Source: Bacteriovorax sp. Seq25_V (GTDB taxonomy: Bacteria; Bdellovibrionota; Bacteriovoracia; Bacteriovoracales; Bacteriovoracaceae). Taken from it: a stretch of DNA of 64,000 nt. The stretch lies in contig NZ_AUNI01000021.1 in the NCBI RefSeq assembly GCF_000447795.1, positions 124,001 to 188,000 on the forward strand, read 5' to 3'. The notes beneath the pieces are model-generated. The model was not told where the DNA came from. It saw only the letters and a program-made list of their open reading frames with translations, and did no database searches. How positions within the stretch are numbered: the first letter of the stretch is position 1; each line of letters opens with the position of its first letter. Made by a program: the position numbers and the translations under genes. This document shows positions 38,689 through 54,772 of the stretch, piece after piece.

Positions 38689-38712
38689 CATGATTGACTT
38701 AAGTCAATCATG
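38689..38712. terminator. Perfect 24-bp palindrome between convergent genes
   Basis: CATGATTGACTT is followed directly by its exact reverse complement. It spans the stop codon (38704-38706) of the minus-strand methyltransferase and lies 31 bases beyond the oxygenase stop. As RNA it folds to a TGATTGAC/GTCAATCA stem with loop TTAA on either strand. A bidirectional terminator is the simplest role, but neither side has a T-run, so a binding site is possible. Confidence 0.45.
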
Positions 38713-39564
38713 GACTAGAGAACAATAAGCTGAAACAACTCTTCCGATTCCAGAGTTGGCGCATCCCCTACGGAAGGAGATTAGCTTTTGAATAGAATCT
38801 TTTGCGAGCATGTTTTCAAAATGTACACGACTGTAGTGAGCACTTCTCCCAGTTTCGGGTAATTTCTGGTAGTTGCTATGATCATTAAATAAAAAAAGCT
38901 CGATTGGGAATTCAGCGAGTGTATCTATGATTCTAAAATCATTGTGAATTAAAAATTTCACAAGTCCTTCAGTATTAAAGTAGTTTAAATGGTCAGGCGT
39001 GCAAACCCAATAATCTCTTTCGATATAATTATTCTCTTTTAGATAGGTCTGAATTAATGAAAAGTCGTTAGGAACAGAAATTTTAAACACGCATTTTTTA
39101 GATGCCAAAAGTTTTATTTTTTTGATGAGAGCATTGGGGTCAATTACATGCTCAAGCACATGATTAAGTGTTATGAAATCAAATTTATCTCCTCTTTTAA
39201 TGAGGTTGTCGATCGTCTCAAATACATCACCCTGAATGACTTTATCTGTGAGTGACGGGAAATGCTTAGTTATCCCATCCTTTGAGAAATCTGCCCCTAG
39301 GACACTCCAGCCAAGCTTACTAAAATGATCTAGATAGAAGCCTTCTCCACAACCAATATCGATAAAACTTCCTTTGGCGCCATTCAAAATATATTCAGCC
39401 TCCATACAGCCTAGATATTTATTGTAAATTTCGTCAGTTGTGTACTCTCTTCCGTTCTGTAGTTTTTTACCTGTGTAGTTGTCATTATAATATTCTTTTA
39501 GTTCATTAGAGTTTGGCTTAGGTGAAATTTCGAAGAAACCTTGCTCGTTCCATATCATATTCAT
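38704..39564 (-). CDS. Class I SAM-dependent methyltransferase
   Basis: About 286 residues from ATG 39564; the frame is open further upstream but AGAGG lies six bases before this ATG and the upstream part overlaps the cytidylyltransferase gene. FIDIGCGEGFYLDHF is the SAM-binding motif I, VLGADFSKDG motif post-I and FITLNHVLEHV the methyltransferase_23 acid/NHVLEH signature. It may methylate the nonulosonate or its substituents. It is the last gene of the long minus-strand operon that begins with the dehydratase at 54772, and its stop lies in the 24-bp palindrome. Confidence 0.85.
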   Translation of the reverse strand: MNMIWNEQGFFEISPKPNSNELKEYYNDNYTGKKLQNGREYTTDEIYNKYLGCMEAEYILNGAKGSFIDIGCGEGFYLDHFSKLGWSVLGADFSKDGITKHFPSLTDKVIQGDVFETIDNLIKRGDKFDFITLNHVLEHVIDPNALIKKIKLLASKKCVFKISVPNDFSLIQTYLKENNYIERDYWVCTPDHLNYFNTEGLVKFLIHNDFRIIDTLAEFPIELFLFNDHSNYQKLPETGRSAHYSRVHFENMLAKDSIQKLISFRRGCANSGIGRVVSAYCSLVHD

Positions 39565-39583
39565 AGAATTCCTCTTTTTAAAA

Positions 39584-40267
39584 TTAAGTCTTAAGCAGTT
39601 TAAATTGTCTACTGAGGAATTCAAAATCATCCTCAGTGTCTACGTCTATTCCGATATCCTGGGGTAGAACAACGTGTTGGATTGGGTTTATGTCAATCAG
39701 TTTATTTACTTTCAATGTGGATAATAAATTGAAGATATAGAAACAACCACAATCACAAAAGCAGGGTGATAAATTTTTTGTGGGCTTTAGATACTCATTA
39801 GGAAAGAGTGGTGCTAGACCATCCGACCCATGTGTAAGCGCCAAAAAAGGAGACATGTTATACTCAGTTGTAGATAGAACAAGCGATTTTGTGTTTTGAT
39901 TAAATTTAGTTACAGCTTCTACATAATGTTCTGGTTTTACCAGGGCTGAAGTAGCGAGGGAGAAAAGAACATTGTTGGTTTTATAAAACTCAGAAAACCT
40001 CGGTATGTCGTATCTAATTAGATCCATAAATGTAGCATTATCGTTGCTAAGAGAATGTGGTCGTAAGTCAAGACAATTTACTTTGTCATATTGCTCGACG
40101 ATCGACTGGATTTCAAGTGAATCGGTCGAAACAGCTATGCCTTCTAAGCATTTTACTTGTTGTAATGACTCAATTACGTGACATATTATAGGTTTATCAT
40201 CAACAATTCTAATGTTCTTTTTGGGGACGCGTTTAGAGCCTATTCTAGCTGGGATATATGCAAACAT
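39584..40267 (-). CDS. CMP-nonulosonate cytidylyltransferase (PseF/NeuA family)
   Basis: A 227-residue nucleotidyltransferase. AYIPARIGSKRVPKKNI is the CTP-binding loop with the conserved R and K residues, followed by VSTDSLEI and RPHSLSNDNAT. DIGIDVDTEDDF at the C-terminus supplies the metal-binding acids. It activates a nonulosonic acid as the CMP sugar, the last cytoplasmic step; with a PseI-type synthase in the same operon the product is probably CMP-pseudaminic acid or a derivative. Its start abuts the stop of the RraA-like gene. Confidence 0.85.
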   Translation of the reverse strand: MFAYIPARIGSKRVPKKNIRIVDDKPIICHVIESLQQVKCLEGIAVSTDSLEIQSIVEQYDKVNCLDLRPHSLSNDNATFMDLIRYDIPRFSEFYKTNNVLFSLATSALVKPEHYVEAVTKFNQNTKSLVLSTTEYNMSPFLALTHGSDGLAPLFPNEYLKPTKNLSPCFCDCGCFYIFNLLSTLKVNKLIDINPIQHVVLPQDIGIDVDTEDDFEFLSRQFKLLKT

Positions 40268-40974
40268 TATTTTTTATCCAATGGCTTCCCTAGTTCATCG
40301 AGATTTGAAAGATGTGCTGCAGCCAATAGGTTTGTCTCGTGTAGATAAGCTTTGTCGCAAACAATTTTCTTCGTGTCCCATTTTAGAGTATCAAGACAGA
40401 AAAACCAGATATCCTCTTGCATCTCTATTCTCTCCAATCTGGTAAGCATAGTCTCAGAAATTAGGTCATTCTCAATAATGACAACTCCACCATCATCGCA
40501 TACCGCAATTGCGCCTTCATACTTTCTTAATATTTCTATTCTTAAATTATCTGGGAACGCATCAGCTTCAACGTTAAAACATCCAATTGGAGATACACCA
40601 TTTGACCAAACATTGAAGCCCTCTCTTTTTATTGCACCTATGTCACGAATCATGCCGTCGACAACTAAACATTTAGCACCTTTGTATAATAGTATGAATT
40701 TAGATACTAAATCGCCAAGAATTGCCCGTTCTTCACAATTGTGTGTGAAAACGATTACAACATCATCTTCTTTAATATCTCTAATCTGCTCATGTAATGC
40801 ATAGTTTGAATTGTTTGCAGTAAATACACATTTTATAGAACCCGCTATGTGAGTATTTTGTTTTACAGGCAGAACACCTTTTAGGGCGCCTGTTTTGCCA
40901 AGAGCATCAGCAACCTCTGTTGTTGAAACTCTGTTCTTTTCAATAAAATCTATTATTCTTTCTTTTATTTCCAT
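40267..40974 (-). CDS. RraA/HMG-aldolase-like protein
   Basis: A 235-residue protein of the RraA-like family. The TEVADALGKTG opening, GDLVSKFILLYKGAKCLVVDG and D106-G107-x-x-R110-D111 form the fold's active site; the D-G-x-x-R-D motif is the metal- and substrate-binding motif of 4-hydroxy-4-methyl-2-oxoglutarate/4-carboxy-4-hydroxy-2-oxoadipate aldolases, and is intact. A C-terminal extension of about 50 residues is extra. RraA-type proteins are not standard parts of nonulosonate pathways; an aldol or retro-aldol step on a keto acid is possible. It sits between a methyltransferase and the cytidylyltransferase with almost no gaps. Confidence 0.7.
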   Translation of the reverse strand: MEIKERIIDFIEKNRVSTTEVADALGKTGALKGVLPVKQNTHIAGSIKCVFTANNSNYALHEQIRDIKEDDVVIVFTHNCEERAILGDLVSKFILLYKGAKCLVVDGMIRDIGAIKREGFNVWSNGVSPIGCFNVEADAFPDNLRIEILRKYEGAIAVCDDGGVVIIENDLISETMLTRLERIEMQEDIWFFCLDTLKWDTKKIVCDKAYLHETNLLAAAHLSNLDELGKPLDKK

Positions 40975-40976
40975 AA

Positions 40977-41612
40977 TTACCTCTCAATTGCAGACTTCCT
41001 TAAAATAGTCGTGAATTCATATAGTCTATAGTCTGAATACAATGAAACATGTTTTGAGATCTTTAACAGCTCAGTTAAAACAGCTTCTGGATTAAAATGA
41101 TAGTTTTTATTTAGTGTGTAATCTACTCTATCTGTAAGAAAATTCAAGGAGACAATATCGTTAGAATTTTCGAATAATCTTTTACATACATCAATGGCGT
41201 ATTGAAAATTATTTGCAATTTTATAGGTAAAAACACCTGATGCAACAGAAATATCAATATTTAAATTTGATAAATCTAGGTCTAGAATTTGACCGTGTAT
41301 AAATTTATAATTTGGCTTGCTATGTTTTTGTTCTGCTAGTTTTAGTAACGATTCAGAGATGTCGATACCGATGTAGTTGAAGTTACTTCCTACCTTGTCT
41401 TCAAGATAATATATCAAGTCACCAAGCCCACATCCAAAATCTAGAATCGTTTTTCCTGATGGGTCTATATCACGAAATAACATTTCAAACCTTAAAAACT
41501 GGCTTTCCTTGTCACGCCAACCTACAGATTTAATATCATCGCCAAGTTCTAAGCATCTTTGATTATAAAAATCAGAAATAGCTTGAAAGTCATTTTGTGA
41601 GTTATTTACCAC
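40977..41612 (-). CDS. Class I SAM-dependent methyltransferase
   Basis: A 211-residue Rossmann methyltransferase. ILDFGCGLGDLIYYL is motif I, NYIGIDISESLLKLA motif post-I, and DISVASGVFTYK motif III. It is short and without an N-terminal extension, as in small-molecule methyltransferases. It overlaps the amidohydrolase gene by 7 bases and is two bases from the RraA-like gene. The sugar acid or a pendant amino-acid group is a likely target; not proved. Confidence 0.8.
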   Translation of the reverse strand: MVNNSQNDFQAISDFYNQRCLELGDDIKSVGWRDKESQFLRFEMLFRDIDPSGKTILDFGCGLGDLIYYLEDKVGSNFNYIGIDISESLLKLAEQKHSKPNYKFIHGQILDLDLSNLNIDISVASGVFTYKIANNFQYAIDVCKRLFENSNDIVSLNFLTDRVDYTLNKNYHFNPEAVLTELLKISKHVSLYSDYRLYEFTTILRKSAIER

Positions 41613-42367
41613 TCCATCATCCTTGTGAAATTTCTATAAAATAACTTCTCAAGATCATCAGAAGAAATTCCACTTTCTTTTAAGTAAGCATATGAAGCAT
41701 TATATGTGTCTGTAATACTTCTGTCTGGATAATCGGATCCATAAAAAATTCTATCGAATCTCATACTTTTCATTGCATATATCATGTCTTTCGGAACTGA
41801 GCTGCCTTGATAATATAGTAATGAATAAGAGAAATCAAAGTACACATTTGGTAAACGTTTGGCCAGCATCATCATGTCGATAACATGATGTCCGCCCATG
41901 TGTGCCCATATAATTTTTGAATCAGGGCACTTTTTAGCACAACTAGCAAATTTGAAGGGTGAAAAACCATCCATTAATGCTGTTCCATCAGGAAAAGCAT
42001 CGATAAGAGTTGGTAGATTTAACTCACCGGCATATTGAATAAGCGCAACGACATTTGGGTCATCTACAGAAAACTGCTGAATCCTAGGATGAAGCTTTAA
42101 ACCACAAAAACCGAGGTTTTTAGCTCGTAGTAAATCAGTTTCAGCATCTATAGAATTAGGATCAATGTTGGCAAATGCTTCAATTCTTTCATACTTATTA
42201 ATTTGGTCTGCTACTTCCTCGAGGGACCAGCCCTGAATAATTAGATGAAGTACTATCGCCTTTGAAATGGATGCCTCTTGTAATTCGCCATTAAGCCCTT
42301 TGAAGGCAGCTTCAAGCGTACGATATTTAACTTTGTCTAAATGTAGGTGACTGTCAATAATCTTCAT
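41606..42367 (-). CDS. Amidohydrolase-2 family metal-dependent hydrolase
   Basis: A 253-residue TIM-barrel hydrolase. The metal ligands are visible: H7 and H9 in IDSHLHLD, a second-shell KLHPR, WAHMGGHH and the terminal FYGSDYPDRS with the catalytic Asp. Relatives cleave C-N bonds or decarboxylate small acids (ACMSD-like). It overlaps the ATP-grasp gene by ATGA-type contact and the methyltransferase by 7 bases. In this operon it may remove or rearrange an amide or carboxyl on the nonulosonate precursor; no such step is known to me from the standard pathway. Confidence 0.75.
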   Translation of the reverse strand: MKIIDSHLHLDKVKYRTLEAAFKGLNGELQEASISKAIVLHLIIQGWSLEEVADQINKYERIEAFANIDPNSIDAETDLLRAKNLGFCGLKLHPRIQQFSVDDPNVVALIQYAGELNLPTLIDAFPDGTALMDGFSPFKFASCAKKCPDSKIIWAHMGGHHVIDMMMLAKRLPNVYFDFSYSLLYYQGSSVPKDMIYAMKSMRFDRIFYGSDYPDRSITDTYNASYAYLKESGISSDDLEKLFYRNFTRMMEW

Positions 42368-43563
42368 TCTACTTCATATATAATCTGTTTCTCGGCAAGA
42401 TCAGCTTTCTTTAATGCTTCATCTAAAGAGGATGCCCAGGTGATTATACACCCAATACGATCGCCGTCACAAGCAGCTTCTGGAAAATCTTGGCCAACGA
42501 CAGCAAATGCTTGACCATAGGTGTTGTTAAAACCATTCACTTTGTCATAACCTTCAAGTTTTTTAATTCTACCTTTTTTACTTGGAGTAAACCTTAGAAC
42601 TCCAAAGCTGTGTCTTTGCTGCACTTTGTTGTTGGCTTGACCGGTCAAAATATTGATTAACTCATTGGTTACATTTCTAGATGTAACTAGTGGAATAAAT
42701 TTTTCAAATAGTAAGAAGCCTCCACCCCTGCCTGCAACTTCAATTATTCCAACAGTGCCATCCTCTTTTAAAATGACTTCAGCATGACCGATACCAAATG
42801 TGTAGCCAAGTGCTTTGAATGCATCAAAAACAGGGGTGCTTATATTACAAACTTCTTGATCACTAAGCTCTGGTGTAAATAGCTCAAATGCAACTGTGCC
42901 ATTAGTGTGAGGTAGTTTCTTCTTCTTAGTTATTGTCAATAAATCAGTTCTCTCTGGAGTACAGAAAACTTCAACAGTATATTCAGTACCCTTCATATAC
43001 TCTTCAATTATTATTTCTTTTGTGCGAGAGAAGTTGAGTGCAGAACTAATTAGTGTTGAATTTTCTTGTGAATCGGTACCGAGTAAAGCAACGCCCCTAC
43101 TACCAGCACTATCTGTTGGTTTAACAATTAATTGAACATTTGCATTGGAGCAGAAATTTAATGCATCATCTTTACTTTTAAAAATTGAAAATTTCGGGAT
43201 GGGTACATTTGATTTTGCCCAGATGTTTCTTTGTATTCCCTTATTTATGAGTGCTGATGTGAGAGGAATGTTTGGGCCCGGTAGTGAAAAGTGTTCTCTT
43301 ATTTGTGCGGCCAACATCATACCGGCTTCTGAACAATAACTAATCGCACCAACATAATTTAACTTAAGGTCATCTAGTGTTTTGAGTATCAAACTAGTAT
43401 CAGATATATTTAAATTTATACTTTTATCTGCGATTGTAAATCCTGGACAATCTTTTTGACCATCAATTGCAATTACCTTAAAACCCATCTGTTGAGCAGC
43501 CTTAATACCAGCAATTTGCCATGTTCCTGCTGTTGCTGCAATTAGCCAGCGTTCATTGTGCAT
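42364..43563 (-). CDS. ATP-grasp ligase
   Basis: A 399-residue ATP-grasp protein. The N-terminal domain is a Rossmann-like pre-ATP-grasp (LIAATAGTWQIAGIKAA); IVKPTDSAGSRGVALL is the ATP-lid segment, EEYMKGTEYTVEVF the hinge, and GIIEVAGRGGGFLLFEKF the metal-binding end. The family joins a carboxylate to an amine or thiol through an acyl phosphate. Beside FemAB-like, GNAT and class III aminotransferase genes it suggests that an amino acid or hydroxy acid is amide-linked to the sugar. It overlaps the PseG-like gene by 11 bases. Confidence 0.85.
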   Translation of the reverse strand: MHNERWLIAATAGTWQIAGIKAAQQMGFKVIAIDGQKDCPGFTIADKSINLNISDTSLILKTLDDLKLNYVGAISYCSEAGMMLAAQIREHFSLPGPNIPLTSALINKGIQRNIWAKSNVPIPKFSIFKSKDDALNFCSNANVQLIVKPTDSAGSRGVALLGTDSQENSTLISSALNFSRTKEIIIEEYMKGTEYTVEVFCTPERTDLLTITKKKKLPHTNGTVAFELFTPELSDQEVCNISTPVFDAFKALGYTFGIGHAEVILKEDGTVGIIEVAGRGGGFLLFEKFIPLVTSRNVTNELINILTGQANNKVQQRHSFGVLRFTPSKKGRIKKLEGYDKVNGFNNTYGQAFAVVGQDFPEAACDGDRIGCIITWASSLDEALKKADLAEKQIIYEVE

Positions 43564-44404
43564 TCAAAACCTCGACTATATATTTTGTTATATTTTCTAA
43601 ACCTTTACCATCAACTAAGGGTTTGAAATTCTTCTTGAATTCGGCAGGATTAAAAGAATTTAAATTATCTAAATATGAGTATCCTACTCCAATTATTGAA
43701 CCATTAGTACGCACGTGCGCTGAAATTCTTTCTTCAGCTTCTGTTTGGGGTATAATAACTACAGGTTTATGTAAATATAGTAATTCAAACAAAGTTCCAC
43801 CTCCGTTTGTAATAGCAATATCACATTGGTGCATCAATGATGGCAAGTTTTTAGGATTTTGTACTATCTTAAGGTTACTGTTTTCAAATGATTCTAATTT
43901 AGCGAGTGGCCCATAAACTAAAGTAACATAAAAACCTTTTTCTAAGAGAATCTTCGCAATAGGCAACGAATCTTTTTTTAGGTCACTACCACCAAGAGAA
44001 ATCAAGACTTGATTTTCAAAAATATTTTTGCCTTCTTTGGGTAGTTGTAAAATTTCGTCTCTAATAATTGCAAAATTGAAATTTTGAATTCGGTTATTAT
44101 GAGAATGTTGATTGTGTTCGTAAATTGATAAAGTTAGATCGGTAGATGAATTATAATTTGTATCTAAACCAATAGTTCGAATATTTCTCGCTTTTAAGAT
44201 ATTCACTTCTTCAGACATATCATATGGATTATCAAAAATAACTAAATCGCACTGGATTGAGCCGAAATTAAGATTTACGTGATTTAAATCAATAAACTCA
44301 GAGTGAAAATTTTTATTCAAATAGTTATGTAGAGAAAGAGATCTTCTATAGTGACCAAAGCCAATCTTATCATTTGAACAAGTTAATATCAAAATCCTTT
44401 TCAT
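43553..44404 (-). CDS. pseG: UDP-sugar hydrolase/transferase, PseG/SpsG family
   Basis: A 283-residue GT-B-like protein. TCSNDKIGFGHYRRSLSL holds the G-x-G-H of PseG (catalytic His), VLISLGGSDLKKD opens the second domain, and IAITNGGGTLFELLYLHKPVVIIP is the UDP-binding end. PseG hydrolyses UDP-2,4-diacetamido-2,4,6-trideoxy-L-altrose to release the free sugar for PseI, and it lies next to the PseI gene here with ATGA overlap. The glycine-rich loop is slightly different from textbook PseG, so a related hydrolase acting on another UDP-amino sugar is possible. Confidence 0.75.
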   Translation of the reverse strand: MKRILILTCSNDKIGFGHYRRSLSLHNYLNKNFHSEFIDLNHVNLNFGSIQCDLVIFDNPYDMSEEVNILKARNIRTIGLDTNYNSSTDLTLSIYEHNQHSHNNRIQNFNFAIIRDEILQLPKEGKNIFENQVLISLGGSDLKKDSLPIAKILLEKGFYVTLVYGPLAKLESFENSNLKIVQNPKNLPSLMHQCDIAITNGGGTLFELLYLHKPVVIIPQTEAEERISAHVRTNGSIIGVGYSYLDNLNSFNPAEFKKNFKPLVDGKGLENITKYIVEVLNAQ

Positions 44405-45462
44405 TCTATGTCTATGTCTATGTCTTCAAGTTTTAATCTTTCACCAAATTCTAGATCACGTTTAACTGGTTTATTGAGTACAGAGTCAAAATATTTTGGT
44501 GCTAAGCCCAGCCCCGGTCTAACTGATTTAATATTGTTTGGAGTTAGTAGCTCACCCTTTTTTATATTTTTTGAAACATATAAAGATCTTTTCCCCCTTA
44601 AGTTATTCTTTGAAGATTTCGTGAGATCAAAATTAGCAACGCCAATTGCTGACTCAACTTTTCTTATCGAGGAAACCATTTGTTTGAACTCAACAAAATC
44701 AAGAGAAAAGAAGGAGTCAACTCCTGTGTTAGATTTATCAACTGTAAAATGTTTTTCAATAATTTTGGCTCCAAGAGCTACTGAAGCAATAGGTACTTCA
44801 ATACCGAGTGTATGATCTGATAAACCAGCTATGCAATTATATCTTTTTCTTATTTCGGGTATTGTTGCAAGATTAATTTCATCAAGTGGCGCAGGATAAG
44901 CGGTTGTGCATTTTAAAAAAGCATATTGATAACAACCATTATCCTCAAGCGTTTTAATTGCAAGTTCAATATCTTCAACGGTCGCCAAACCTGTTGAAAG
45001 GATTATTGGTTTATTTGTAAGTGCGACTTTCTTGATTAACTGAAGATCATTTATTTCAGGAGATGCGATTTTGTATGCAGGAGTATTTAAGCTTTCAAGC
45101 AAGTCAACCGCTGTTTCATCAAATGGGCTAGAAAAGATATCTATTCCAACTTCATGCGCTACTTTGAATAATTTTTTATGCCATTCCCAAGGGGTGTGGG
45201 CTTCTTCATAAAGAGAATAAAGATTCTTGGAGCCTGCCCAAGGAGAATCTTTTGGCAACAAAAAATCTTCTTTGTTAGAATCTAAAGTGATGGTAGATGC
45301 TTTATAGGTTTGAAGTTTGACAGCGTCTGCACCAGCCTCCTTGGCTTTCTTTATGATTTCGATAGCATAATTAATATCACCATTATGATTACCAGACATT
45401 TCTGCAATTATATACGCTGGTGACAAATCAGAGATTTCAGTGCCATTAATTTTAAATATCAT
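44401..45462 (-). CDS. pseI: Pseudaminic acid synthase (NeuB family)
   Basis: A 353-residue nonulosonate synthase: TIM barrel with AEMSGNHNGD, AGADAVKLQTYKAST and LYEEAHTPWEWHKKLF, the last being a PseI rather than NeuB/LegI feature; LSDHTLG and EKHFTVDKSNTG follow, and an antifreeze-like SAF domain occupies about 290-345. It condenses phosphoenolpyruvate with the free 6-deoxy amino sugar from PseG. The C-terminal residues DIDIDIE come from a 3.5-copy hexanucleotide repeat at 44405-44425. Overlaps the PseG-like gene in ATGA. Confidence 0.9.
   Translation of the reverse strand: MIFKINGTEISDLSPAYIIAEMSGNHNGDINYAIEIIKKAKEAGADAVKLQTYKASTITLDSNKEDFLLPKDSPWAGSKNLYSLYEEAHTPWEWHKKLFKVAHEVGIDIFSSPFDETAVDLLESLNTPAYKIASPEINDLQLIKKVALTNKPIILSTGLATVEDIELAIKTLEDNGCYQYAFLKCTTAYPAPLDEINLATIPEIRKRYNCIAGLSDHTLGIEVPIASVALGAKIIEKHFTVDKSNTGVDSFFSLDFVEFKQMVSSIRKVESAIGVANFDLTKSSKNNLRGKRSLYVSKNIKKGELLTPNNIKSVRPGLGLAPKYFDSVLNKPVKRDLEFGERLKLEDIDIDIE
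44405..44425. repeat. Hexanucleotide tandem repeat at the end of pseI
   Basis: TCTATG is repeated three and a half times. On the minus strand it encodes Asp-Ile three times at the extreme C-terminus of PseI, just before the overlapping start of the PseG-like gene. A change of copy number keeps the frame and adds or removes one Asp-Ile pair. Confidence 0.8.
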
Positions 45463-45531: not shown

Positions 45532-46488
45532 CTAAATTTGTGCGCTGCTAAGGCTTGTCCATGGAGCATTCCTGATAATATTTGATGGTATCTCATGGTG
45601 TACAGGGAGAAGGTGAAGTTGTTCTAATTTTGGAAGAGCCCAATCTAGACTAGAATTGAAGAATCTCTTCTCAATCTCTATGTTATATTGTTTAAAGTAT
45701 TGAATAATATCTTGAGTTGCTCTAAAGGGAATTGCTGAAGGGAATGAAATATCATTCTGTTTAATAGGAATAATATCTTTAAGTGTTTCAATGTTATTTT
45801 TTCGTAATTCACTAAAGCTATGAAAACTATTGAGTTTTTCTGAAATATTATTAAGTGCGAATTCATGTAATCTTGATGGCACAGATTCAATACCATGCCA
45901 AAGTTGCAAGAAAGGATGTTTTCTATAATAGCTTAAAGATTTAGTGATATATTTTAAAAAAGAGTAGTCAAAGTTATAGTCTCGAATATTCTTAAGTTCA
46001 TTAGCTATCTCGATGGATTGACATAAGCATAGACCACCGGAAAATGTACCTAAAACCTTGGGTAGTGATATTAACGAAATAGCTGAATGTTTAAATATAT
46101 TTTCTGAATTGAAAATGAAAGAATCAGCACGATCATCTACAATAATTTCAGAAGGCAAATTGGCAAATACAAAACCTAGTTGATGATAATTAAATGAGAG
46201 ATTCGCTTTATAATTTAAGGTTGGAGTAGATTTTCTTGAAATAGCTTCTAATACACAATGAGAAGAATATGGAGCGGTAAAGATTTGGTCGTTGCGACCC
46301 TTGTTGTATAGTTCTAGAATTGCTGGAATAGATGCTCTCGCACTCGAGAAAAGAACGGGAAATGTGTTCGGATAAATAGTTTGAAATTTTAATTCAATAT
46401 CAAGACTAGTTTTCGAAGTAAACGCGAAAGTAGGTTTAGAGTTTAGCCAAAAATTTTTCACGAAGTTGCTCACTTGAGTTATATTCAA
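45532..46488 (-). CDS. Divergent DegT-like PLP-fold protein
   Basis: A 318-residue protein with the outline of a DegT/DnrJ aminotransferase: LFSSARASIPAIL (phosphate-binding start), FTAPYSSHCVLEAI, EIIVDDRADSF in place of the EDAAQ region, and SLISLPKVLGTFSGG, where the Lys would be the Schiff-base residue. It lacks the usual C-terminal dimer arm motifs and is shorter than the ~370 residues of the family. It overlaps the FemAB-like gene by 53 bases; GTG codons at positions 6 and 10 offer later starts. A catalytic or structural partner of the acyltransferase is possible; function unknown. Confidence 0.5.
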   Translation of the reverse strand: MNITQVSNFVKNFWLNSKPTFAFTSKTSLDIELKFQTIYPNTFPVLFSSARASIPAILELYNKGRNDQIFTAPYSSHCVLEAISRKSTPTLNYKANLSFNYHQLGFVFANLPSEIIVDDRADSFIFNSENIFKHSAISLISLPKVLGTFSGGLCLCQSIEIANELKNIRDYNFDYSFLKYITKSLSYYRKHPFLQLWHGIESVPSRLHEFALNNISEKLNSFHSFSELRKNNIETLKDIIPIKQNDISFPSAIPFRATQDIIQYFKQYNIEIEKRFFNSSLDWALPKLEQLHLLPVHHEIPSNIIRNAPWTSLSSAQI

Positions 46489-47488: not shown

Positions 47489-48813
47489 TAGTTAAATTTT
47501 CTAAATACCGGTTTTACAATATCACCACTTATGTGCTTCTGAAGATCTCCATTTTCAAATCCGGACTTTATCTTGATTAAACATTCTCCAATAACGTCTA
47601 TCGCAAAATTAATATCAGACTCAGTGTGTGCAAAAGAGGGAACAACATATGGAAACATTAAGCCTCTTTTCAAGGACTCTTGTAGAAAGTATGTTCTTGC
47701 TTCCCAAGAAAAATTTCCTTTGTTGTCGACAAATCCGAACGAAGGTTTACATCCATATCCACCTATTTGTATGTAATCAATAGTGTTATCAGATAAAGCT
47801 CTTTGCCTAATACCTTTTTGTAGGCTCTCCCCAACTTTCCAAAAGTGGTCAATTATATTGTGCTTCATGATTTCTGTTATTGTAGCTTTTGCTGCTGCAA
47901 GAGAATGAGTTTCACCACCATGAGTAGTTGATAATAAGAAAACACGTTCTTGATCGTGATCAATCCCTCCAAGCTTCATTATATCTCTTTGACCAACTAA
48001 AGCACTGACAGAAAAGCCATTTGCCATTGCTTTTCCAAGGGCTGTCAAGTGAGGCTTTATGCCTAAAAACTCTTGAGCCCCACCAAGTCTAAATCTAAAG
48101 CCTGAAACAACTTCATCAAAAATTAAAACTGAACCATTTTTTTCGCATAAATCTTTTAATTGTTGTAGAAAGTTATTGCTTGGTTCTATGAAAGAAAGAG
48201 GCTCTAGTAAGAAGCAGGATATTTGATTTGGATATTCATCAAACAATTTTTTTACACTGTCTATATTGTTATATTCAAATTGTAAGGTTAGATCTCTAAC
48301 ACATTTTGGAACTCCTCTGCTTATTATTGTTGAGCCAATGAACCAATCGTGAACGGCATTAAATGGATCGTTCTTGCATCTTGCGACATAGTCTCTTCCT
48401 GTGTAGGCCCGGGAAAGTTTTACTGCTGCAGTTGTTGCATCAGAGCCATTTTTGGCAAACTTTACCATCTCGGCTGATGGAATAATTTGAGTTAGTAATT
48501 CTGCGAGATCTCCCTCAATAACTGAGGGTCTAGTGAAGTTTACGCCTTTATAAATTTCGGCTTCAACAGCTTTTAAAATAGGTCCATATGCATGACCAAG
48601 TGTTACGGTTCCTAAAGACATAGCAAAATCTGTAAATTCATTACCTGCCATGTCATATAATTTGCATCCCTTTCCGTGTGAAACAATAAATGGTTGATCC
48701 GATGGGAATTGATCTGAGCCTTTCGAGTATGTATGTGATCCGCCAGGAATTAAACTTTTGGCTCTGTCTGAAAAAGGTTTGTTTGCTTCAAAATTATATA
48801 TTTTTGTGTTCAA
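47488..48813 (-). CDS. Class III aminotransferase, glutamate-1-semialdehyde aminomutase-like
   Basis: A 441-residue PLP enzyme when begun at TTG 48813 (MNTKIYNFE). The family N-terminus SDRAKSLIPGGSHTYSKG follows shortly, and GGAG lies five bases before this TTG. An open frame continues 50 codons upstream but looks unlike the family. KNGSDATTAAVKLSRAYTGRD, LIFDEVVSGFRF and LGKAMANGF (Schiff-base Lys) identify the class. In flagellin- and glycan-modification islands such enzymes amine keto groups on the sugar or make an amino-acid side chain. The gap to the next upstream gene (125 bp) holds no other gene I can support. Confidence 0.85.
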   Translation of the reverse strand: MNTKIYNFEANKPFSDRAKSLIPGGSHTYSKGSDQFPSDQPFIVSHGKGCKLYDMAGNEFTDFAMSLGTVTLGHAYGPILKAVEAEIYKGVNFTRPSVIEGDLAELLTQIIPSAEMVKFAKNGSDATTAAVKLSRAYTGRDYVARCKNDPFNAVHDWFIGSTIISRGVPKCVRDLTLQFEYNNIDSVKKLFDEYPNQISCFLLEPLSFIEPSNNFLQQLKDLCEKNGSVLIFDEVVSGFRFRLGGAQEFLGIKPHLTALGKAMANGFSVSALVGQRDIMKLGGIDHDQERVFLLSTTHGGETHSLAAAKATITEIMKHNIIDHFWKVGESLQKGIRQRALSDNTIDYIQIGGYGCKPSFGFVDNKGNFSWEARTYFLQESLKRGLMFPYVVPSFAHTESDINFAIDVIGECLIKIKSGFENGDLQKHISGDIVKPVFRKFN

Positions 48814-48822
48814 ATGAACTCC
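48811..48822 (-). promoter_or_regulatory. Ribosome site that decides a TTG start
   Basis: GGAG (48819-48822) with a five-base spacer precedes TTG (48811-48813) on the minus strand. This explains why the aminotransferase begins here rather than at the more distant ATG at 48963. Confidence 0.65.
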
Positions 48823-48938
48823 AGTTTTTTTGTGATAATAAAGTAATATGATTTTAGCAGTGTGATAATTGGAAGTAAAAGAGAAATGATCTCGTAAGCA
48901 GTGTGCCAAGCGCAAGGTGCTCAATCTGGCCGAAAATT

Positions 48939-49808
48939 TTAGATTAAGCCATTTTTTTTCCACGTAAGTGGATCAATAACATCTTTTATGTTTGAACTAA
49001 ATTGTGAAAAATCAAGTTTTTCGCAAGGGCTTATTTCGTTATTAATAATAAAATCTTGTAATTGATCTTGAGAACAAACACCAAATACTATGGAATCGAT
49101 AAAGTCAAGGTTGTTGTTGAAGTTACAAACTGCTTGTATTCTATTAATTTTGTTATCTTTTAAAAAGCGACTATATCTTTCAAATAAATCAATATAAGGT
49201 TTGAAGTAAAGGTCTAGCTTATCGACAGGTTGAAGTAATAGACCTTGAAGATATATAGATCTTATATGTATTTCGATACCTTTTCTTTTAGCTTCTGTTA
49301 ATAAATTTTTGGCAAGAAATCTTTGGTCGAAAATATTTAGTGGAATTTGCACTATGTCAAGCTTGGTATCGTTATCTAGAATGAATTCCAATTCTTCGGG
49401 ATTATAAAGTGACACGCCAATCTTCTTTAAGAACCCCTCTGATTTGATAGCGTTTAAATTTTCAACAAGATTCCTATTATGCTTAAGATCATCAAATTTA
49501 TGAATTAAATATGCATATAGACTTTGGGAGTTTAAATTTAGCAAAGACTTTTCAATGCTGTCTCTGAGGCCTTTTTCATTCGAGGTATTCACTCCCTTTG
49601 TTATAACATTGAAATCACTAATATGATTATAGCTACCAAGTATTTTTTCCGCTTCACCGTAAGCTGAAGCGGTATCGAGTGTATTAACACCATTGGCTCT
49701 GGCGTAATCTAAAATTTTGAATACTTCTTCGATGTTAACTTGACCGTCTTTGTTAGTAAGCCCATAGTTTAAACCAAATTGTACTGTTCCAAGGACTAAA
49801 TTTTTCAT
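48939..49808 (-). CDS. Aldo/keto reductase
   Basis: A 289-residue TIM-barrel reductase. LGTVQFGLNYGLTN is the N-terminal form of sugar-cluster AKRs; GVNTLDTASAYGEAE holds the catalytic Asp and Tyr, and YAYLIHKFDD carries the His. The C-terminal NADP-binding segment is short (IVFGVCSQDQLQDF). Similar genes are found in flagellar and surface-glycan islands next to class III aminotransferases. It probably reduces a keto group on the sugar or on a side-chain precursor. The start directly follows the stop of the SDR-PseC fusion. Confidence 0.85.
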   Translation of the reverse strand: MKNLVLGTVQFGLNYGLTNKDGQVNIEEVFKILDYARANGVNTLDTASAYGEAEKILGSYNHISDFNVITKGVNTSNEKGLRDSIEKSLLNLNSQSLYAYLIHKFDDLKHNRNLVENLNAIKSEGFLKKIGVSLYNPEELEFILDNDTKLDIVQIPLNIFDQRFLAKNLLTEAKRKGIEIHIRSIYLQGLLLQPVDKLDLYFKPYIDLFERYSRFLKDNKINRIQAVCNFNNNLDFIDSIVFGVCSQDQLQDFIINNEISPCEKLDFSQFSSNIKDVIDPLTWKKNGLI

Positions 49809-51917
49809 CTAAGAGAGTACCTTTACAATCTGCGATATTATAAGATCTACTTCTTCATCGGTTATCGAAGGGAAAAGAGGTAATGTAATTGCTTGATTGT
49901 AGTAAATAAGGGAGTTGGAATAGTCCTTTAGAGGTATTTTAAATGTTTCGGCATAATATGGTTGTAATGGAATTGGAATATAGTGTACATGGGGAGATAC
50001 ACCTGCTGAAGATAATTCTTTAAAAACTTGAGCACGTGATTTTCCAAGTTTTTCATAATTAATCATTGCAACATAAAGATGATTCCCGCTTATATCTCTT
50101 GTTTTGTTTTGAACAAGTTTAAAATGTTTAAGAGATGAAAATGCTTTATCATAACGTTTGGCAACCTCAATTCTTCGCGATAGAAATCCTTCTAGCTTAT
50201 TCATTTGAGAAATACCAAGTGAGCATTGAATATCTGTTATTCTGTAATTATACCCAATTTGTTGCATTTCATAGTACCAGCTATTTTGAGATCCATCAGT
50301 ATAAGCTAGCTCATCATTTTTGAAAGGGTCATTCCCTTTAATTATTCCATGGCTTCTTAGTCTTAGTAATTGCTTATAAACTTCAGTACTGTTTGTAGTA
50401 ATTATAGAGCCTTCACCAGTTGCAATATTCTTGACGGGATGAAAAGAAAAACCGCACATAAGTGAGTTTGAACACGATCCAATTTTTCCACCTTCTAAAT
50501 AGTTACCACCGAGAGCATGAGCAGCATCTTCAATAATAACGGCACCATATTTATCGGCAACCTTTTTGAGTTCTTGCATATCGCAAGGGTGACCAGCAAA
50601 ATGTACGGGGATAATTGCTTTAACATTACCAAGCTCTTTACATTTTCTTTCAACTTCGATTGGGTCGAGATTGAGTGTCTCAATATTTATATCTGCAAAA
50701 GCAGGTATCGCGCCAGAGTAAACAGCGCAGTTAGAGCTTGCAACAAATGACAGTGGAGAAGTGATCACGCTGTCTCCTGGTAATACACCAGCAGCAAGAC
50801 AAGCAATATGAAGGCCACAGGTCCAATTAGAAACAGCGACTGCATATTTTGCTCCAACAAATTTTGCAATTACATCCTCAAACTCTTGAACCTTGGGTCC
50901 TTGTGTTAAAAAATTTCCATTCAAAGTTTTTATTACAGAGTTTATATCTGACTCATCTATGAATTGTTTTCCATAGTGGATTTGTTTTTCTTCCTTAATT
51001 GATACAGAAGATAAAAATTTAGTATGTACACCCACAAACTCAGCTTGTTTCATTAGTTCAAGTGATTCCTCAATTGTAAGAAACTTTGTGTTTAATAGAG
51101 ATATAGCTTTTTCGTTAGAGAGAGACATATTGAGAGGTCTATTTACGAGATTTCCAATATCCTTAATTGAACCTTTGTTTATTAAGGAAACATTAAGGTC
51201 AAATGCCTTAGCAACCTTTAAACCAAATTCATATTTTGAAACTTTTTCTGGACCTACAATATTAAAAATACCTTCAGCATTTCTTTCAACTAATAAATTA
51301 ATCTTTTTTATTAAATCTTCTACATAAATTGGAGTGTAGTAAACATCATCAAATAATGTGATAGTTTTTTTCTTTCTTAAGGAGTTTATTATAACATCGG
51401 AGAAAGATTTTCGGTATTTATGTCCCCATCCATAAAAATTAGTTCTTACAATAAGAGGATCGGATGCACTTCTCTTAACTTCAAACTCGGCATCAAGTTT
51501 TGTTTTTGCATAATTGTTAATAGGGATATCTATTTGATTCTCGTCTGAAAGCAAAGACGCTTGACTGCAGAAATGATCAGTAGAAATATGTACAAGTTTT
51601 GCATTGACTAGCTTAGAGGCCTTCGCAATATAACGAGAAGCTAAAACATTAGATTCGTAAGCTTGGAAGTAGTTCTTTTCACAATATTCGACATTAGTTA
51701 AGCCTGCTGTATGAATTATGATATCGGGGGAAAACTTTTCAATCTCACGATAAACTTTCATTTCGTCACTTAGATTTAGGTGTGTACAAGATACACCATC
51801 GAGCTCTACTAGTTTTGATTTACAAAATAAAGAAATATCCCAAATATCTTTCATGAAATAAGCTAAGTTTATCCCTAAAAGACCACTGCCACCTGTGATA
51901 AGAACTTTTTTCTTCAT
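49809..51917 (-). CDS. SDR reductase - PseC transaminase fusion
   Basis: A 702-residue two-domain protein. Residues 1-290 are an RmlD-like short-chain reductase: ITGGSGLLGINLA, VHISTDHFC and YAKTK (Y-x-x-x-K intact). Residues from about 315 are a full PseC: HYGKQFIDESDI, FLTQGPKVQEFE, EDAAHALGG and FHPVKNIATGEGS with the Schiff-base Lys496. PseC aminates C4 of UDP-4-keto-6-deoxy-L-AltNAc; the SDR would reduce a keto group on a related intermediate. The reading frame runs through the join without a stop. I know of no named fusion of this kind. The order dehydratase, exporter, fusion, reductase suggests the fusion works in the nonulosonate pathway. Confidence 0.85.
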   Translation of the reverse strand: MKKKVLITGGSGLLGINLAYFMKDIWDISLFCKSKLVELDGVSCTHLNLSDEMKVYREIEKFSPDIIIHTAGLTNVEYCEKNYFQAYESNVLASRYIAKASKLVNAKLVHISTDHFCSQASLLSDENQIDIPINNYAKTKLDAEFEVKRSASDPLIVRTNFYGWGHKYRKSFSDVIINSLRKKKTITLFDDVYYTPIYVEDLIKKINLLVERNAEGIFNIVGPEKVSKYEFGLKVAKAFDLNVSLINKGSIKDIGNLVNRPLNMSLSNEKAISLLNTKFLTIEESLELMKQAEFVGVHTKFLSSVSIKEEKQIHYGKQFIDESDINSVIKTLNGNFLTQGPKVQEFEDVIAKFVGAKYAVAVSNWTCGLHIACLAAGVLPGDSVITSPLSFVASSNCAVYSGAIPAFADINIETLNLDPIEVERKCKELGNVKAIIPVHFAGHPCDMQELKKVADKYGAVIIEDAAHALGGNYLEGGKIGSCSNSLMCGFSFHPVKNIATGEGSIITTNSTEVYKQLLRLRSHGIIKGNDPFKNDELAYTDGSQNSWYYEMQQIGYNYRITDIQCSLGISQMNKLEGFLSRRIEVAKRYDKAFSSLKHFKLVQNKTRDISGNHLYVAMINYEKLGKSRAQVFKELSSAGVSPHVHYIPIPLQPYYAETFKIPLKDYSNSLIYYNQAITLPLFPSITDEEVDLIISQIVKVLS

Positions 51918-53690
51918 TTATAATTCCTGTAGTTTAACTAATTTTGCAAATTTTCCATCGAGATTATTAAGTTGGATGAAGTTTCCTTCCTCTAATATTT
52001 TACCATTTTCTAAATAGTATATCTTTTCACAAGCTCTAACGGTACTTAGTCTATGCGCAACAATTACTAGAGTTATACTATGCTTTAAATTTTCAAGTGT
52101 AACTTGAATTTTAGCTTCCGAATGAGAGTCAAGCGCACTCGTTGGTTCATCCAAAATCAAAATGTTCGGTTTTTTATAAAGAGCTCTAGCGATAGCAAGA
52201 CGTTGTTTCTGACCACCAGATAAAGTTGACCCTTCTTCCTCTAGAATTGTATTTAAACCGTTAGGTAGGGATATAATTTCATCATATATATTTGCTAAGT
52301 GAAGACATTCTATAACTCGATCTTCGTTTGGAGTAGCTTCTCCAAGTGATACATTATCAATTATTGTTCCACTTAAAATAATTGTCTCTTGGGATACAAA
52401 ACCAATATGTGATCTCCAACTACTTATTGATAAGTTGGACATGTCCAATGAATCGATAAGAATCTTGCCAGATGTCGGGTGATTTAACCCCGTAAGTAAT
52501 TTTATAATAGTTGATTTTCCAGAACCGGAAGGTCCAACAAAAGCTACCGTTTCTCCCTTATTGATTTGAAGGCAAAGGTTTTTTAAGACCTCTGTGCTGT
52601 GATTGTAGGAAAAGGAGATGTTGTCGAAAATAATACTGGATTCAAATTTATGGAGATTAATTCCACTGTAATTCTCTTTTTGCCTTAAGGTTTCATCAAT
52701 AAAATTCTTCAATAAAACAAAACTTGGAGTGCTTGATATAATTACCTGCTTATTTGTAGTAAACTGGCTTACTAGAGGTAGTAGGTTTCTCAGAGTATAT
52801 AGAACAATTAATACTTCAGCAAAAGTCAGGTTAAAGTAGTTAATCGAGATAATAATAATTATAGACACAAGAATGACTGAAATAGGCTCATATATTATTG
52901 CGCTAAGCTCTCGAGTTAAAATCATCTTGGCGTGAGTGAGTTTGAAGTTGAGAAAACTATGTTTAAAGCGGGAAATATACAGGTGTTCGGCAGCAAAAGA
53001 TTTGATCGTAACTAAACCATCAAATACCCTTATTAGATGATTATTAATATTATTTCCTAATATTACACGTTCATTTGAAATTAAGAATATTTTTTTGTTA
53101 AATATTAAAGATGGTAGTAATGTAAATATGCTTACTGATCCAATCATTAATACAAGAGAAATAGAAAACGAAAGTAAGATTGAAAAGTAAAATACAAATT
53201 TTAACAAAATTGCCATAAGCCCAAAGGCATAATATAAGCACTCGCCTATCTTTTGAGTTTCAACATTAATGTAGTTGCTAACTTCCCCAGAATTGTGTTT
53301 ATTTAGCCATTGTCCACGTGAATATGTTAGAGCTTCAAAAAGCTGAAGACCTAAGTCTGTTTCATAAAGAACTCTTGTTTTTAAAACAAAATATTTAGTT
53401 AGGTAATTAAAAGCTGCTTTAAATGTAATTATTACTGCAAACAAAATGAAGTAATTGTTAATAGTCGTATCGATATTTAATCGAGAAAAAAGAGAGTTTA
53501 TTCTTATTGTAAACGTTGAATACTGTGATGGAGGAGTTGAGTTTAAATACTCAATAATAGGAATTAAGGAAACAACACTTAGGGCATCGACTACAGCAAA
53601 AAGTGTTGAAGAAGTAGTTGATGCAATTGCCATTTTTGAGTGTTTTGTAAATACACTCTGGAGCAAATGAAATGTGTCCTTGTAGTTCAC
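51918..53690 (-). CDS. ABC exporter, MsbA/PglK-like
   Basis: A 590-residue half-transporter: six membrane helices in about 1-320, then an ATPase with Walker A GPSGSGKST near 386, LSGGQKQRLAIARAL and LILDEPTSALD, and the H-loop AHRLST. It resembles PglK, which flips lipid-linked oligosaccharides, and MsbA. It starts with GTG (AGAG six bases upstream) and lies between the dehydratase and the SDR-PseC fusion, so it may flip a lipid-linked product of this operon. The glycan locus also has a MOP flippase at 16714, consistent with two separate products. Confidence 0.9.
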   Translation of the reverse strand: MNYKDTFHLLQSVFTKHSKMAIASTTSSTLFAVVDALSVVSLIPIIEYLNSTPPSQYSTFTIRINSLFSRLNIDTTINNYFILFAVIITFKAAFNYLTKYFVLKTRVLYETDLGLQLFEALTYSRGQWLNKHNSGEVSNYINVETQKIGECLYYAFGLMAILLKFVFYFSILLSFSISLVLMIGSVSIFTLLPSLIFNKKIFLISNERVILGNNINNHLIRVFDGLVTIKSFAAEHLYISRFKHSFLNFKLTHAKMILTRELSAIIYEPISVILVSIIIIISINYFNLTFAEVLIVLYTLRNLLPLVSQFTTNKQVIISSTPSFVLLKNFIDETLRQKENYSGINLHKFESSIIFDNISFSYNHSTEVLKNLCLQINKGETVAFVGPSGSGKSTIIKLLTGLNHPTSGKILIDSLDMSNLSISSWRSHIGFVSQETIILSGTIIDNVSLGEATPNEDRVIECLHLANIYDEIISLPNGLNTILEEEGSTLSGGQKQRLAIARALYKKPNILILDEPTSALDSHSEAKIQVTLENLKHSITLVIVAHRLSTVRACEKIYYLENGKILEEGNFIQLNNLDGKFAKLVKLQEL

Positions 53691-53701
53691 GTTATTCTCT
53701 A

Positions 53702-54772
53702 CTAGCGTAAAAGTTCGCCTTCCTGCTCTTTGTCTAGGTTAAATTCAAGCAAATTATTTTCTTTTAATAAATTAATTGTGCCTTGAAGATCTAAGACATC
53801 ATCGTCTGAACTAAATTCTTTTGATAATTCTTTCTCGGTGGATTTTATTATTCCATCATTTAATTCAGGTAGCATTGATTTGATTGCGTAATAATCGCCT
53901 TTTCTAACTGTGTGATTGATTTCTTCTTCAGAGATCATGATTTCATGCATTTTCTCGCCTGGTCTGATTCCAGTGATTTTAATTTCGATGCCAGTATTAC
54001 CTACAATAGCTTTTGCAATATTTTCAACCGTTGCGGCAGGGGCTATTGGAACAAAAGTCTCACCCGCTTCGGCATTTTGAATAGCTGCAAAAACAGTATC
54101 AACAGCTTTGTTTAAATTAAGAAGGAAGCGAGTCATGTTTGGTACTGTGACTGTTATAGGCCCACCAGCTTTCATTTGCTCGTGAAAAAGTGGAATAACA
54201 GAGCCTCTTGAGGCAAGAACATTCCCATACCTTACACAAATAAATCTAGTTTCAGGAATCAAGATATTAGCAGAAGTAAATATTCTTTCTTGAACTGCCT
54301 TTGTCATGCCCATTACGTTAACAGGCTTAGCGGCTTTATCTGTACTAATGCCGACGACTGTTTCTACATTAAAGTTATTTTCTCTAATTGCTTGTACAAT
54401 ATTACTTGCACCAATACAGTTTGTTAAAATTGCCTGGTGAGGAAAGTACTCACAAGTGGGAACTTGCTTCATTGCGGCTGCATTTACAACAATATCAGCA
54501 TCTTTGATAGCGGAGCAGACTGTTTGGTAGTCTCTTACGTCACCAATGCGAAACTCTAGAACTTTTTTAAAGTTTTCATAAACAGCTTCATCCATTCCGA
54601 CAATTCTGTTTTGATAAGACATTCTCATGTCGTGTTGTTTTGCTTCGTCTCGAGATAAAATTATAACTTTTTTTGGGTTTCCAAGTTCTCCTGATAATAC
54701 TCTTCGAACAAAAATTTTGCCCATTGAACCTGTACCACCTGTAACTAGAATTCTTTTACCTTCAAAAACCAT
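53702..54772 (-). CDS. UDP-GlcNAc 4,6-dehydratase, PseB/CapE-like (MxxxK type)
   Basis: A 356-residue soluble extended SDR. TGGTGSMGKI (11-20) binds NAD, GISTDKAAKP has the catalytic Thr144-Asp145-Lys146, and the usual Tyr of the YxxxK motif is Met154 (M-x-x-x-K158). This is the pattern of CapE/FnlA-like and PglF-like dehydratases, while PseB/FlaA1 has Tyr. The product is UDP-4-keto-6-deoxy-HexNAc, of L-arabino (5-inverting) or D-xylo form. PseC in the same operon favours the inverted form. It is the first gene of the 16-kb minus-strand operon and has a candidate promoter upstream. Confidence 0.8.
   Translation of the reverse strand: MVFEGKRILVTGGTGSMGKIFVRRVLSGELGNPKKVIILSRDEAKQHDMRMSYQNRIVGMDEAVYENFKKVLEFRIGDVRDYQTVCSAIKDADIVVNAAAMKQVPTCEYFPHQAILTNCIGASNIVQAIRENNFNVETVVGISTDKAAKPVNVMGMTKAVQERIFTSANILIPETRFICVRYGNVLASRGSVIPLFHEQMKAGGPITVTVPNMTRFLLNLNKAVDTVFAAIQNAEAGETFVPIAPAATVENIAKAIVGNTGIEIKITGIRPGEKMHEIMISEEEINHTVRKGDYYAIKSMLPELNDGIIKSTEKELSKEFSSDDDVLDLQGTINLLKENNLLEFNLDKEQEGELLR

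Follow-up and report, generated by a model that had tools for sequence, protein, structure and literature searches.

A pseudaminic acid-type gene run in Bacteriovorax with a candidate kit for a tailor-made N-acyl group

We analysed a 64,000-nt stretch of Bacteriovorax sp. Seq25_V (GCF_000447795.1, contig NZ_AUNI01000021.1, positions 124,001 to 188,000; hereafter, the window), in which 15 contiguous minus-strand open reading frames (ORFs), reading from position 54772 in the first gene to 38704 in the last, combine a pseudaminic acid (Pse) backbone with a set of additional enzymes. Tentatively, and judging from the sequence, we favour the possibility that the product of the run is a CMP-activated nonulosonate of the pseudaminic type destined for a surface polysaccharide, with an N-acyl group that would be a tailor-made, probably O-methylated hydroxy acid. 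The methoxy-acyl Pse chemotype is already known from Campylobacter jejuni, but the gene kit for it appears to be new.

Organization of the nonulosonate run

The unbroken same-strand run proposed in the preliminary description was borne out, with nearly all of the 15 ORFs abutting or overlapping: among the 14 junctions, 9 are overlaps, 2 have zero gap, and the remaining 3 leave 2, 11 and 69 bases between the ORFs. According to the window annotation, the run is embedded in a large polysaccharide locus that also encodes pathways to other sugars. Chance origin is not an issue, given the long ORFs, the strong family matches and the gene order partly kept in relatives. The expected active-site motifs are intact in the RraA-like protein, the aldo/keto reductase (AKR), the class III aminotransferase (AT3), the ATP-grasp protein, both methyltransferases and the short-chain dehydrogenase/reductase (SDR).

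In the established pathway, PseB, PseC, PseG, PseI and PseF produce the nine-carbon backbone from UDP-GlcNAc. The first gene of the run encodes a PseB-like UDP-GlcNAc 4,6-dehydratase (53702..54772; PF02719; TIGR03589, 295 bits, below the cut-off of 408), with a 75% identical relative in cluster L144 adjoining the same radical-SAM gene as in the window. It is followed by an ABC exporter with membrane and ATPase parts (51918..53690; PF00664/PF00005), a possible glycan flippase, which adjoins PseB/PseC in clusters L033 and L060 as well. The next product (49809..51917) is a 702-aa fusion of an RmlD-like SDR (PF04321), in which the YxxxK motif is present, to a PseC aminotransferase (PF01041; TIGR03588, 444 bits, above the cut-off of 423.5); the same fusion occurs in G267 and G317. 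Further downstream are the nonulosonate synthase PseI (44401..45462; TIGR03586, 475 bits, above the cut-off of 340), a PseG-like UDP-sugar hydrolase (43553..44404; TIGR03590, 68.5 bits, below the cut-off of 153.6) and a PseF-like CMP-nonulosonate cytidylyltransferase (39584..40267; PF02348; TIGR03584, 123 bits, below the cut-off of 205.7), the only cytidylyltransferase in the run. Thus, the backbone recognized earlier stands, with PseC and PseI exceeding the curated cut-offs and PseB, PseG and PseF assigned to the right families below them. The SDR-PseC fusion, the presence of an ABC exporter within the run and the absence of PseH had not been described before.

The run shares equivalents of PseB, PseC, PseG, PseI and PseF with the CMP-pseudaminic pathway of C. 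jejuni and Helicobacter pylori (PseB-C-H-G-I-F), but differs from it in having no PseH, in the fusion of PseC to an SDR and in about nine extra genes interleaved with the backbone genes. No PseH N-acetyltransferase was found in the run, and the best match in the genome (39.9 bits, cut-off 93.1) is on another contig. Among the 7 Pse clusters compared, the 5 ligase-less ones (L033, L144, L153, L060 and L145) include a GNAT within the cluster, whereas both ligase-bearing ones (the window and L108) have none. The absence of PseH is nevertheless a soft argument, because the sample is 7 clusters and, even where the cluster includes the GNAT, PseH-like proteins score under the curated cut-off. A generic 312-aa GNAT, a weak match encoded approximately 1 kb beyond the run (36783-37721), could stand in for PseH.

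Recurrent core and putative side-chain module

Four of the extra genes form a separate recurrent core. These encode the AKR (48939..49808; PF00248), with the catalytic tetrad Asp-Tyr-Lys-His; AT3, an aminotransferase of the GSA type (47488..48963; NF004856, 545 bits, above the cut-off of 486), with its Lys intact; a FemAB-like acyl/aminoacyl transferase (46436..47488; TIGR04421, FemAB_IMCC1989, 85 bits, below the cut-off of 250); and a divergent PLP-fold protein (45532..46488, the true start possibly lying downstream of 46488; TIGR04422, PLP_IMCC1989, 131 bits, above the cut-off of 75), which has an invariant Lys in the alignment and no significant similarity to PseC by hhalign. FemAB-type proteins classically use aminoacyl-tRNA, and the FemAB-like protein weakly matches, in the PDB, a peptide synthase that depends on aminoacyl-tRNA (E=1.4). 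Single-sequence AlphaFold models of this protein and of the amidohydrolase described below had a pLDDT of about 43, too low for use. Within the one phylum compared, the core is common, wholly or partly, to 6 other clusters, being found in L033, L144/L154, L153 and L108 and in part in L060 and L145. The AKR recurs in L033, L108, L144 and L153 and the FemAB-like gene in L033, L108, L144 and L145; the FemAB/PLP pair is adjacent in the window and L033 and forms convergent neighbours in L144, where the class III aminotransferase is fused to a cytidylyltransferase (SpsF::aminotransferase). All 4 genes stand beside the nonulosonate core in the ligase-less L033 and L144, as do AKR and AT3 in L153, and the side-chain genes are thus not their specific partner.

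The ATP-grasp, amidohydrolase, methyltransferase and RraA-type aldolase genes constitute a second module. The ATP-grasp protein (42364..43563; PF13535), a carboxylate-amine ligase proposed to be the N-acylating enzyme, carries the motifs KPTDSAGSRGV and IEVAGRGGG (patterns KPxDxxGSxGV and IEVxGRGGG) and a LAL_C2-like C-terminus (PF18603 match below that family's cut-off); its closest solved relatives are 4dim and the L-amino acid ligase 3vot. The amidohydrolase with an HxH motif (AmidoH, 41606..42367; PF04909) is a proposed deacylase, or else a lactonase or hydratase. It adjoins the ATP-grasp gene in L055 and L056 and a methyltransferase gene in L054 (MT2) and L060; a reaction common to its relatives is doubtful, because parts of the HxH metal motif are lost in them. 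Pairs of a hydrolase and a new acylating enzyme occur elsewhere, as PIG-L with a formyltransferase (L144) and AmidoH with a formyltransferase (L060). The SAM motif D.GCG.G is intact in both methyltransferases, MT2 (40977..41612; PF13847) and MT1, the last gene (38704..39630; PF13489). MT2 has no fixed association with the ligase, since its plasmid relatives lie beside WbqC and acetyltransferases, with no ATP-grasp gene.

The RraA-like pyruvate aldolase/oxaloacetate decarboxylase (40267..40974; PF03737, 74 bits; PDB 3noj, E=1e-15) contains a GD..RD motif that aligns to 3noj and is invariant in 3 relatives. It is rare, being present in 8 of 358 genomes, with 2 close relatives besides its own. 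In L056, from another family, genes for RraA (43% identity), ATP-grasp and AmidoH are contiguous; in L071, RraA is present with no ligase nearby. L108, which was retrieved by an ATP-grasp profile built without it and has the order PseI-PseG-MT2-X-ATP-grasp, places a pyruvate aldolase of a different family, 4-hydroxy-2-oxovalerate aldolase (PRK08195, 248 bits, above the cut-off of 229), beside the same ligase and methyltransferase as in the window. Aldolases of this type are also uncommon, being encoded in 6 of 125 family genomes (E<=1e-20). The 294-aa protein X encoded between MT2 and the ATP-grasp gene of L108 had no Pfam, NCBIfam or PDB match; by eye, it looks NodB-like. The co-occurrence elsewhere for which the preliminary description proposed to look was seen in the one-phylum comparison, the neighbourhoods being kept as modules rather than scattered.

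Candidate pathway and alternative explanations

According to the reading we favour, AmidoH would strip an existing acyl group to leave a free amine, and the ATP-grasp ligase, rather than PseH, would acylate the sugar amine with a small acid. This acid may originate from the RraA-type aldolase, which would join pyruvate (or oxaloacetate) to an aldehyde, yielding a 4-hydroxy-2-oxo acid for reduction by the AKR or the fused SDR and O-methylation by MT2. Neither reductase is a clear candidate for this step, as both also occur in ligase-less clusters. The AKR, AT3, FemAB and PLP core would modify the sugar proper, perhaps by introducing an additional amine and acylating it. The glycan structure, the site of the amide and the role of the aldolase are all predictions from gene content. 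The preliminary description had assigned the whole set to an amide-linked, possibly methylated hydroxy or amino acid; the backbone and the suited enzymes agree with this proposal, but the 4 core genes are not confined to clusters with the side-chain genes. The 450 Da flagellin glycan of Treponema denticola, said to have been described by Kurniyati in 2017, is reportedly a Pse-type sugar with a 2-methoxy-4,5,6-trihydroxyhexanoyl amide, the acyl that aldol addition of pyruvate to glyceraldehyde, reduction, O-methylation and ligation would give, a likeness at the level of structure and a lead only.

It is conceivable, if somewhat unlikely, that the ATP-grasp enzyme instead attaches an amino acid in the manner of L-amino-acid ligases, alone or with FemAB, with RraA and AmidoH supplying or recycling the residue and no aldol-derived hydroxy acid involved. 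The LAL_C2-like end, the L-amino acid ligase structures among the best ATP-grasp relatives, the tRNA-dependent chemistry of FemAB-type proteins with the weak PDB match, and the fact that amino-acyl nonulosonates are known are consistent with such a role; however, a pyruvate aldolase, superfluous for a plain amino acid, accompanies the ligase in the window, L056 and L108. The aldolases may also be viewed through their other neighbours: RraA overlaps PseF in the window, L175 has an aldolase of the same family as that of L108, which may make an ulosonic acid there, adjoining genes for a cytidylyltransferase and a HAD-like phosphatase, and a KdsB-like gene was noticed by eye near the L108 cluster. 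These arrangements would fit an RraA (or L108 aldolase) that forms an additional 3-deoxy-2-ulosonic acid or cleaves surplus nonulosonate, with the neighbouring cytidylyltransferase activating the product and the acyl chain being unrelated. Such a function appears unlikely in view of L056, where RraA adjoins ATP-grasp and AmidoH and the contig has no cytidylyltransferase, and of the window, which already has PseI and a single cytidylyltransferase in the run. Finally, the run could be an ordinary Pse operon that yields essentially diacetyl-Pse, with a GNAT (that at 36783 or a different one) in the role of PseH and with the extra genes devoted to another residue of the same polysaccharide. The size of the locus, its other sugar pathways and the GNAT about 1 kb away speak for this option, which we consider quite unlikely, because the genes for PseF, PseG and PseI are intermingled with the additional ones along a single overlapping run and several of the latter recur with Pse genes in L108.

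Extended beyond the window, the favoured reading leads to a more speculative and rather improbable generalization, namely, that a reusable kit, consisting of a pyruvate aldolase of either of 2 families, an O-methyltransferase, a hydrolase and an ATP-grasp ligase, builds polyhydroxy-methoxy acyls and ligates them to nonulosonates, replacing PseH. Nonulosonates with odd N-acyl groups are carried by many bacteria, and the kit, if real, would explain at the gene level how methoxy-acyl pseudaminic acids arise. A compact candidate kit with parts recurring together and an exchangeable aldolase family would make the origin of the acyl testable in vitro and would let genomes yield product predictions.

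Related systems and wider distribution

The suggestion that the chemotype is unknown did not hold. C. jejuni NCTC 11168 makes 7-acetamido-5-(2,3-di-O-methylglyceroyl)amino pseudaminic acid in a Cj1295-dependent manner (PMC3068675). Both this compound and the predicted product of the run are of the Pse type and bear an O-methylated hydroxy acid in amide linkage. An amine-freeing hydrolase is proposed in both cases, removal of the acetamido group followed by methylglyceroyl substitution being the authors' hypothesis for C. jejuni, but the gene implicated there is aminopeptidase-like and that of the run belongs to PF04909; that paper describes the making and attachment of such N-acyl groups in C. 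jejuni as largely unassigned, and its accessible part does not name an ATP-grasp/RraA set (PMC3068675). Tannerella forsythia has N-glyceroyl Pse (PMC6388019). In Shewanella oneidensis, the sfmABCDE products include an ATP-grasp protein and a methyltransferase that act on a glycan containing a mono-N-acetyl Pse-like sugar and showing an O-methyl signal; sfm and the run share an ATP-grasp_4 protein, a SAM methyltransferase and a PseI-like enzyme (PMC3765264). By contrast, sfm also has a TPP enzyme and a ketoreductase and is used on flagellin, and its operon lacks the RraA, amidohydrolase, AKR and class III aminotransferase of the run (PMC3765264). Neither a TPP enzyme nor Maf is encoded among the run genes or their annotated neighbours, the setting being a polysaccharide locus. 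RraA-like and PF04909 genes also lie close together, as in the run, in protocatechuate 4,5-cleavage (LigK/HMG-CHA aldolase with the LigI/LigJ amidohydrolases), but the run has an anabolic glycan context, identity is low, and RraA scores far below the LigK cut-off (TIGR02798, 60 bits versus 304.5).

A scan of genome contigs with a single ATP-grasp sequence and poor peptide patterns retrieved distant ATP-grasp proteins only; L026, a candidate from the single-sequence scan, proved to be an ordinary polysaccharide cluster that includes an ATP-grasp gene. Viral contigs contained no RraA relative and one amidohydrolase, with the other module genes not nearby. Plasmids yielded distant ATP-grasp and MT2 relatives only (<=32% identity among the matches listed), in other sugar clusters, and plasmid class III aminotransferases were located in rhizobial clusters with DUF4910 and PIG-L and no nonulosonate genes.

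Two flanking genes may be functionally linked to the run. On the minus strand, a PFTS-motif polysaccharide protein (35257..36783; TIGR04417, over the cut-off) is a candidate nonulosonate transferase, and its homologue in L144 is located between PseI and FemAB. A PhyH-type 2-oxoglutarate dioxygenase gene on the plus strand (37830..38657; PF05721) is convergent with the run and possibly accessory; PhyH genes are found near AmidoH or RraA in L054, L055 and L071 too.

The 15-gene run and its core partners

The nonulosonate run named in the preliminary description was confirmed: 15 ORFs, all on the minus strand, fill the interval 38704-54772. Of its 14 junctions, 9 are overlaps, 2 have no gap and the others have gaps of 2, 11 and 69 bases, making a single transcription unit plausible. 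In transcription order, the genes encode a PseB-like dehydratase, an ABC exporter, an RmlD-SDR::PseC fusion, an aldo/keto reductase (AKR), a class III aminotransferase (AT3), FemAB, a PLP-fold protein, PseI, PseG, an ATP-grasp ligase (42364..43563), an amidohydrolase (AmidoH), the methyltransferase MT2, an RraA-like aldolase (40267..40974), PseF and the methyltransferase MT1. PseI, PseC, AT3 and the PLP protein passed curated cut-offs, which PseB, PseG, PseF and FemAB did not reach; active-site motifs were intact in a motif check. The surroundings in the window form a large surface-polysaccharide locus.

A TIGR04422 search of 291 genomes of the phylum matched two relatives, one of which, locus L033, has the order ABC-PseB-PseC-AKR-cytidylyltransferase (SpsF-like)-AT3-small GNAT-PseI-PseG-FemAB-PLP. 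The L144/L154 cluster encodes AKR, an SpsF::AT3 fusion, PseG, GNAT, formyltransferase, PIG-L, PseI, a PFTS protein, FemAB, PLP, SDR::PseC and a radical-SAM/PseB pair; L153 carries PseB, SDR::PseC, AKR, SpsF, AT3, PseG fused to GNAT, and PseI; and L108 carries SpsF, PseI, PseG, AT3 (60%), AKR, FemAB and PseB. The core is present in part in L060 and L145. Given this recurrence, AKR, AT3, FemAB and PLP, previously counted among the non-standard enzymes, are regular partners of the nonulosonate core.

The 699-aa SpsF-like cytidylyltransferase::AT3 fusion (L144:1712-3811) ties AT3 to the cytidylyltransferase's pathway. In a Vibrio cluster described in the literature, the fusion partner of an SpsF-like domain is an aldo/keto reductase (PMC7371886). 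Some class III aminotransferases act on sugar carbonyls (C-6' aminotransferases in the PDB), and by analogy the pair AKR and AT3 may introduce an amine into the sugar. Nonulosonate clusters are not the only setting of AT3: relatives of it lie in other sugar clusters of rhizobial plasmids. In two such loci (L121 and L122), a same-family aminotransferase gene adjoins oxidoreductase, DUF4910, rfbC, methyltransferase, glucose-1-phosphate cytidylyltransferase and PIG-L genes, a neighbourhood conserved in Agrobacterium and Shinella.

A radical-SAM/SPASM gene (54934-56184) diverges from PseB (53702-54772). With the divergent pair in L144 the two share 73% and 75% identity, well beyond the level of most other cluster genes, which marks the junction as a possible recombination anchor. 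Near the run, a PFTS-motif protein (TIGR04417; 35257-36783), whose L144 homologue (7704-9260) lies between PseI and FemAB, is a candidate nonulosonate transferase.

The proposed side-chain module and its aldolases

An AmidoH search of 369 genomes led to L056, a locus from another family in which RraA, ATP-grasp and AmidoH genes are contiguous in the same relative order as in the window, without MT2 or Pse genes; its RraA is 43% identical to the window protein over the full length. Since no nonulosonate genes were found on its 15 kb contig, the module may also decorate other sugars. The L056 island (6433-10350) reads RraA-ATP-grasp-AmidoH-GT2 amid housekeeping genes. Partial combinations include ATP-grasp-AmidoH (L055), MT2-AmidoH (L054) and, in the Pse cluster L060, AmidoH-MT-PseG-PseI; L054 and L055 each also carry two 2-oxoglutarate oxygenase-like genes and one GH130-like gene.

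An ATP-grasp profile built from three proteins, L108 not among them, matched L108, with the order PseI-PseG-MT2 (33%)-X-ATP-grasp-PLP-aldolase. Protein X (294 aa; 8665-9549), NodB-like by eye only, had no match in Pfam, NCBIfam or PDB. The L108 aldolase has a 4-hydroxy-2-oxovalerate aldolase domain (PRK08195, above cut-off), of a different family from RraA, and like RraA is a pyruvate aldolase; both types are uncommon in this genome group. It looks as if the ligase and methyltransferase have stayed together and one pyruvate aldolase next to them has given way to another. Caution comes from L175, where a HAD-like phosphatase, a cytidylyltransferase and a two-domain 4-hydroxy-2-oxovalerate-aldolase-like protein, encoded in a row (7050-9951), look like an alternative ulosonic-acid pathway; aldolases of this sort may thus also serve ulosonic-acid synthesis.

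Proposed N-acylation and chemical precedents

No PseH of curated grade was found in the genome itself or in six comparison genomes, indicating that genomes of this group call for a less stringent threshold than the curated one. Five clusters lacking the ligase (L033, L144, L153, L060 and L145) have a small or fused GNAT, that of L145 being a weak match partly read by eye, and no GNAT lies inside the window run or L108, the two ligase-bearing clusters of this small set. A generic GNAT is encoded just beyond the run (36783-37721). The most likely reading is that N-acylation falls to the ligase, which would use a purpose-made acid. In the scheme that we propose, built by assigning predicted reactions to the observed gene content, order, motifs and recurrence, RraA would catalyse an aldol addition as the first step toward the acid, AKR or SDR would reduce the product, MT2 would O-methylate the acid, AmidoH would set the amine free and the ATP-grasp protein would ligate the acid. 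The pairing of a hydrolase with a new acyl enzyme has parallels in L144 (PIG-L and formyltransferase) and L060 (AmidoH and formyltransferase). The metal-binding HxH of AmidoH is intact in the window protein and variable among relatives, which weakens the case for one shared hydrolase role. The 450 Da glycan of T. denticola has a 2-methoxy-4,5,6-trihydroxyhexanoyl group, which the aldolase route would explain well.

The pairing of a hydrolase with a new acyl enzyme has another parallel in the hypothesis put forward by the authors of PMC3068675 that in C. jejuni an acetamido group is removed and methylglyceroyl then substituted. The suggested amide-linked, methylated side chain, initially described as an unfamiliar chemotype, is not new: Pse bearing amide-linked O-methylated hydroxy acids (PMC3068675) and N-glyceroyl Pse (PMC6388019) are known, and a Shewanella operon that, like the run, includes an ATP-grasp protein and a methyltransferase targets a Pse-type glycan (PMC3765264). 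The T. denticola glycan is reported as novel, with a mass of 450.2 Da, in PMC9481697. The original interpretation is supported in part: the modules recur with partly conserved order, but four of the odd enzymes belong to the core and the chemotype has precedents. No account of the proposed gene kit, or of how its modules recur, was found in the literature searched. PhyH-type dioxygenases, encoded in the window (37830-38657) and in L054, L055 and L071, repeatedly occur near AmidoH, ATP-grasp or RraA genes and may hydroxylate the side chain.
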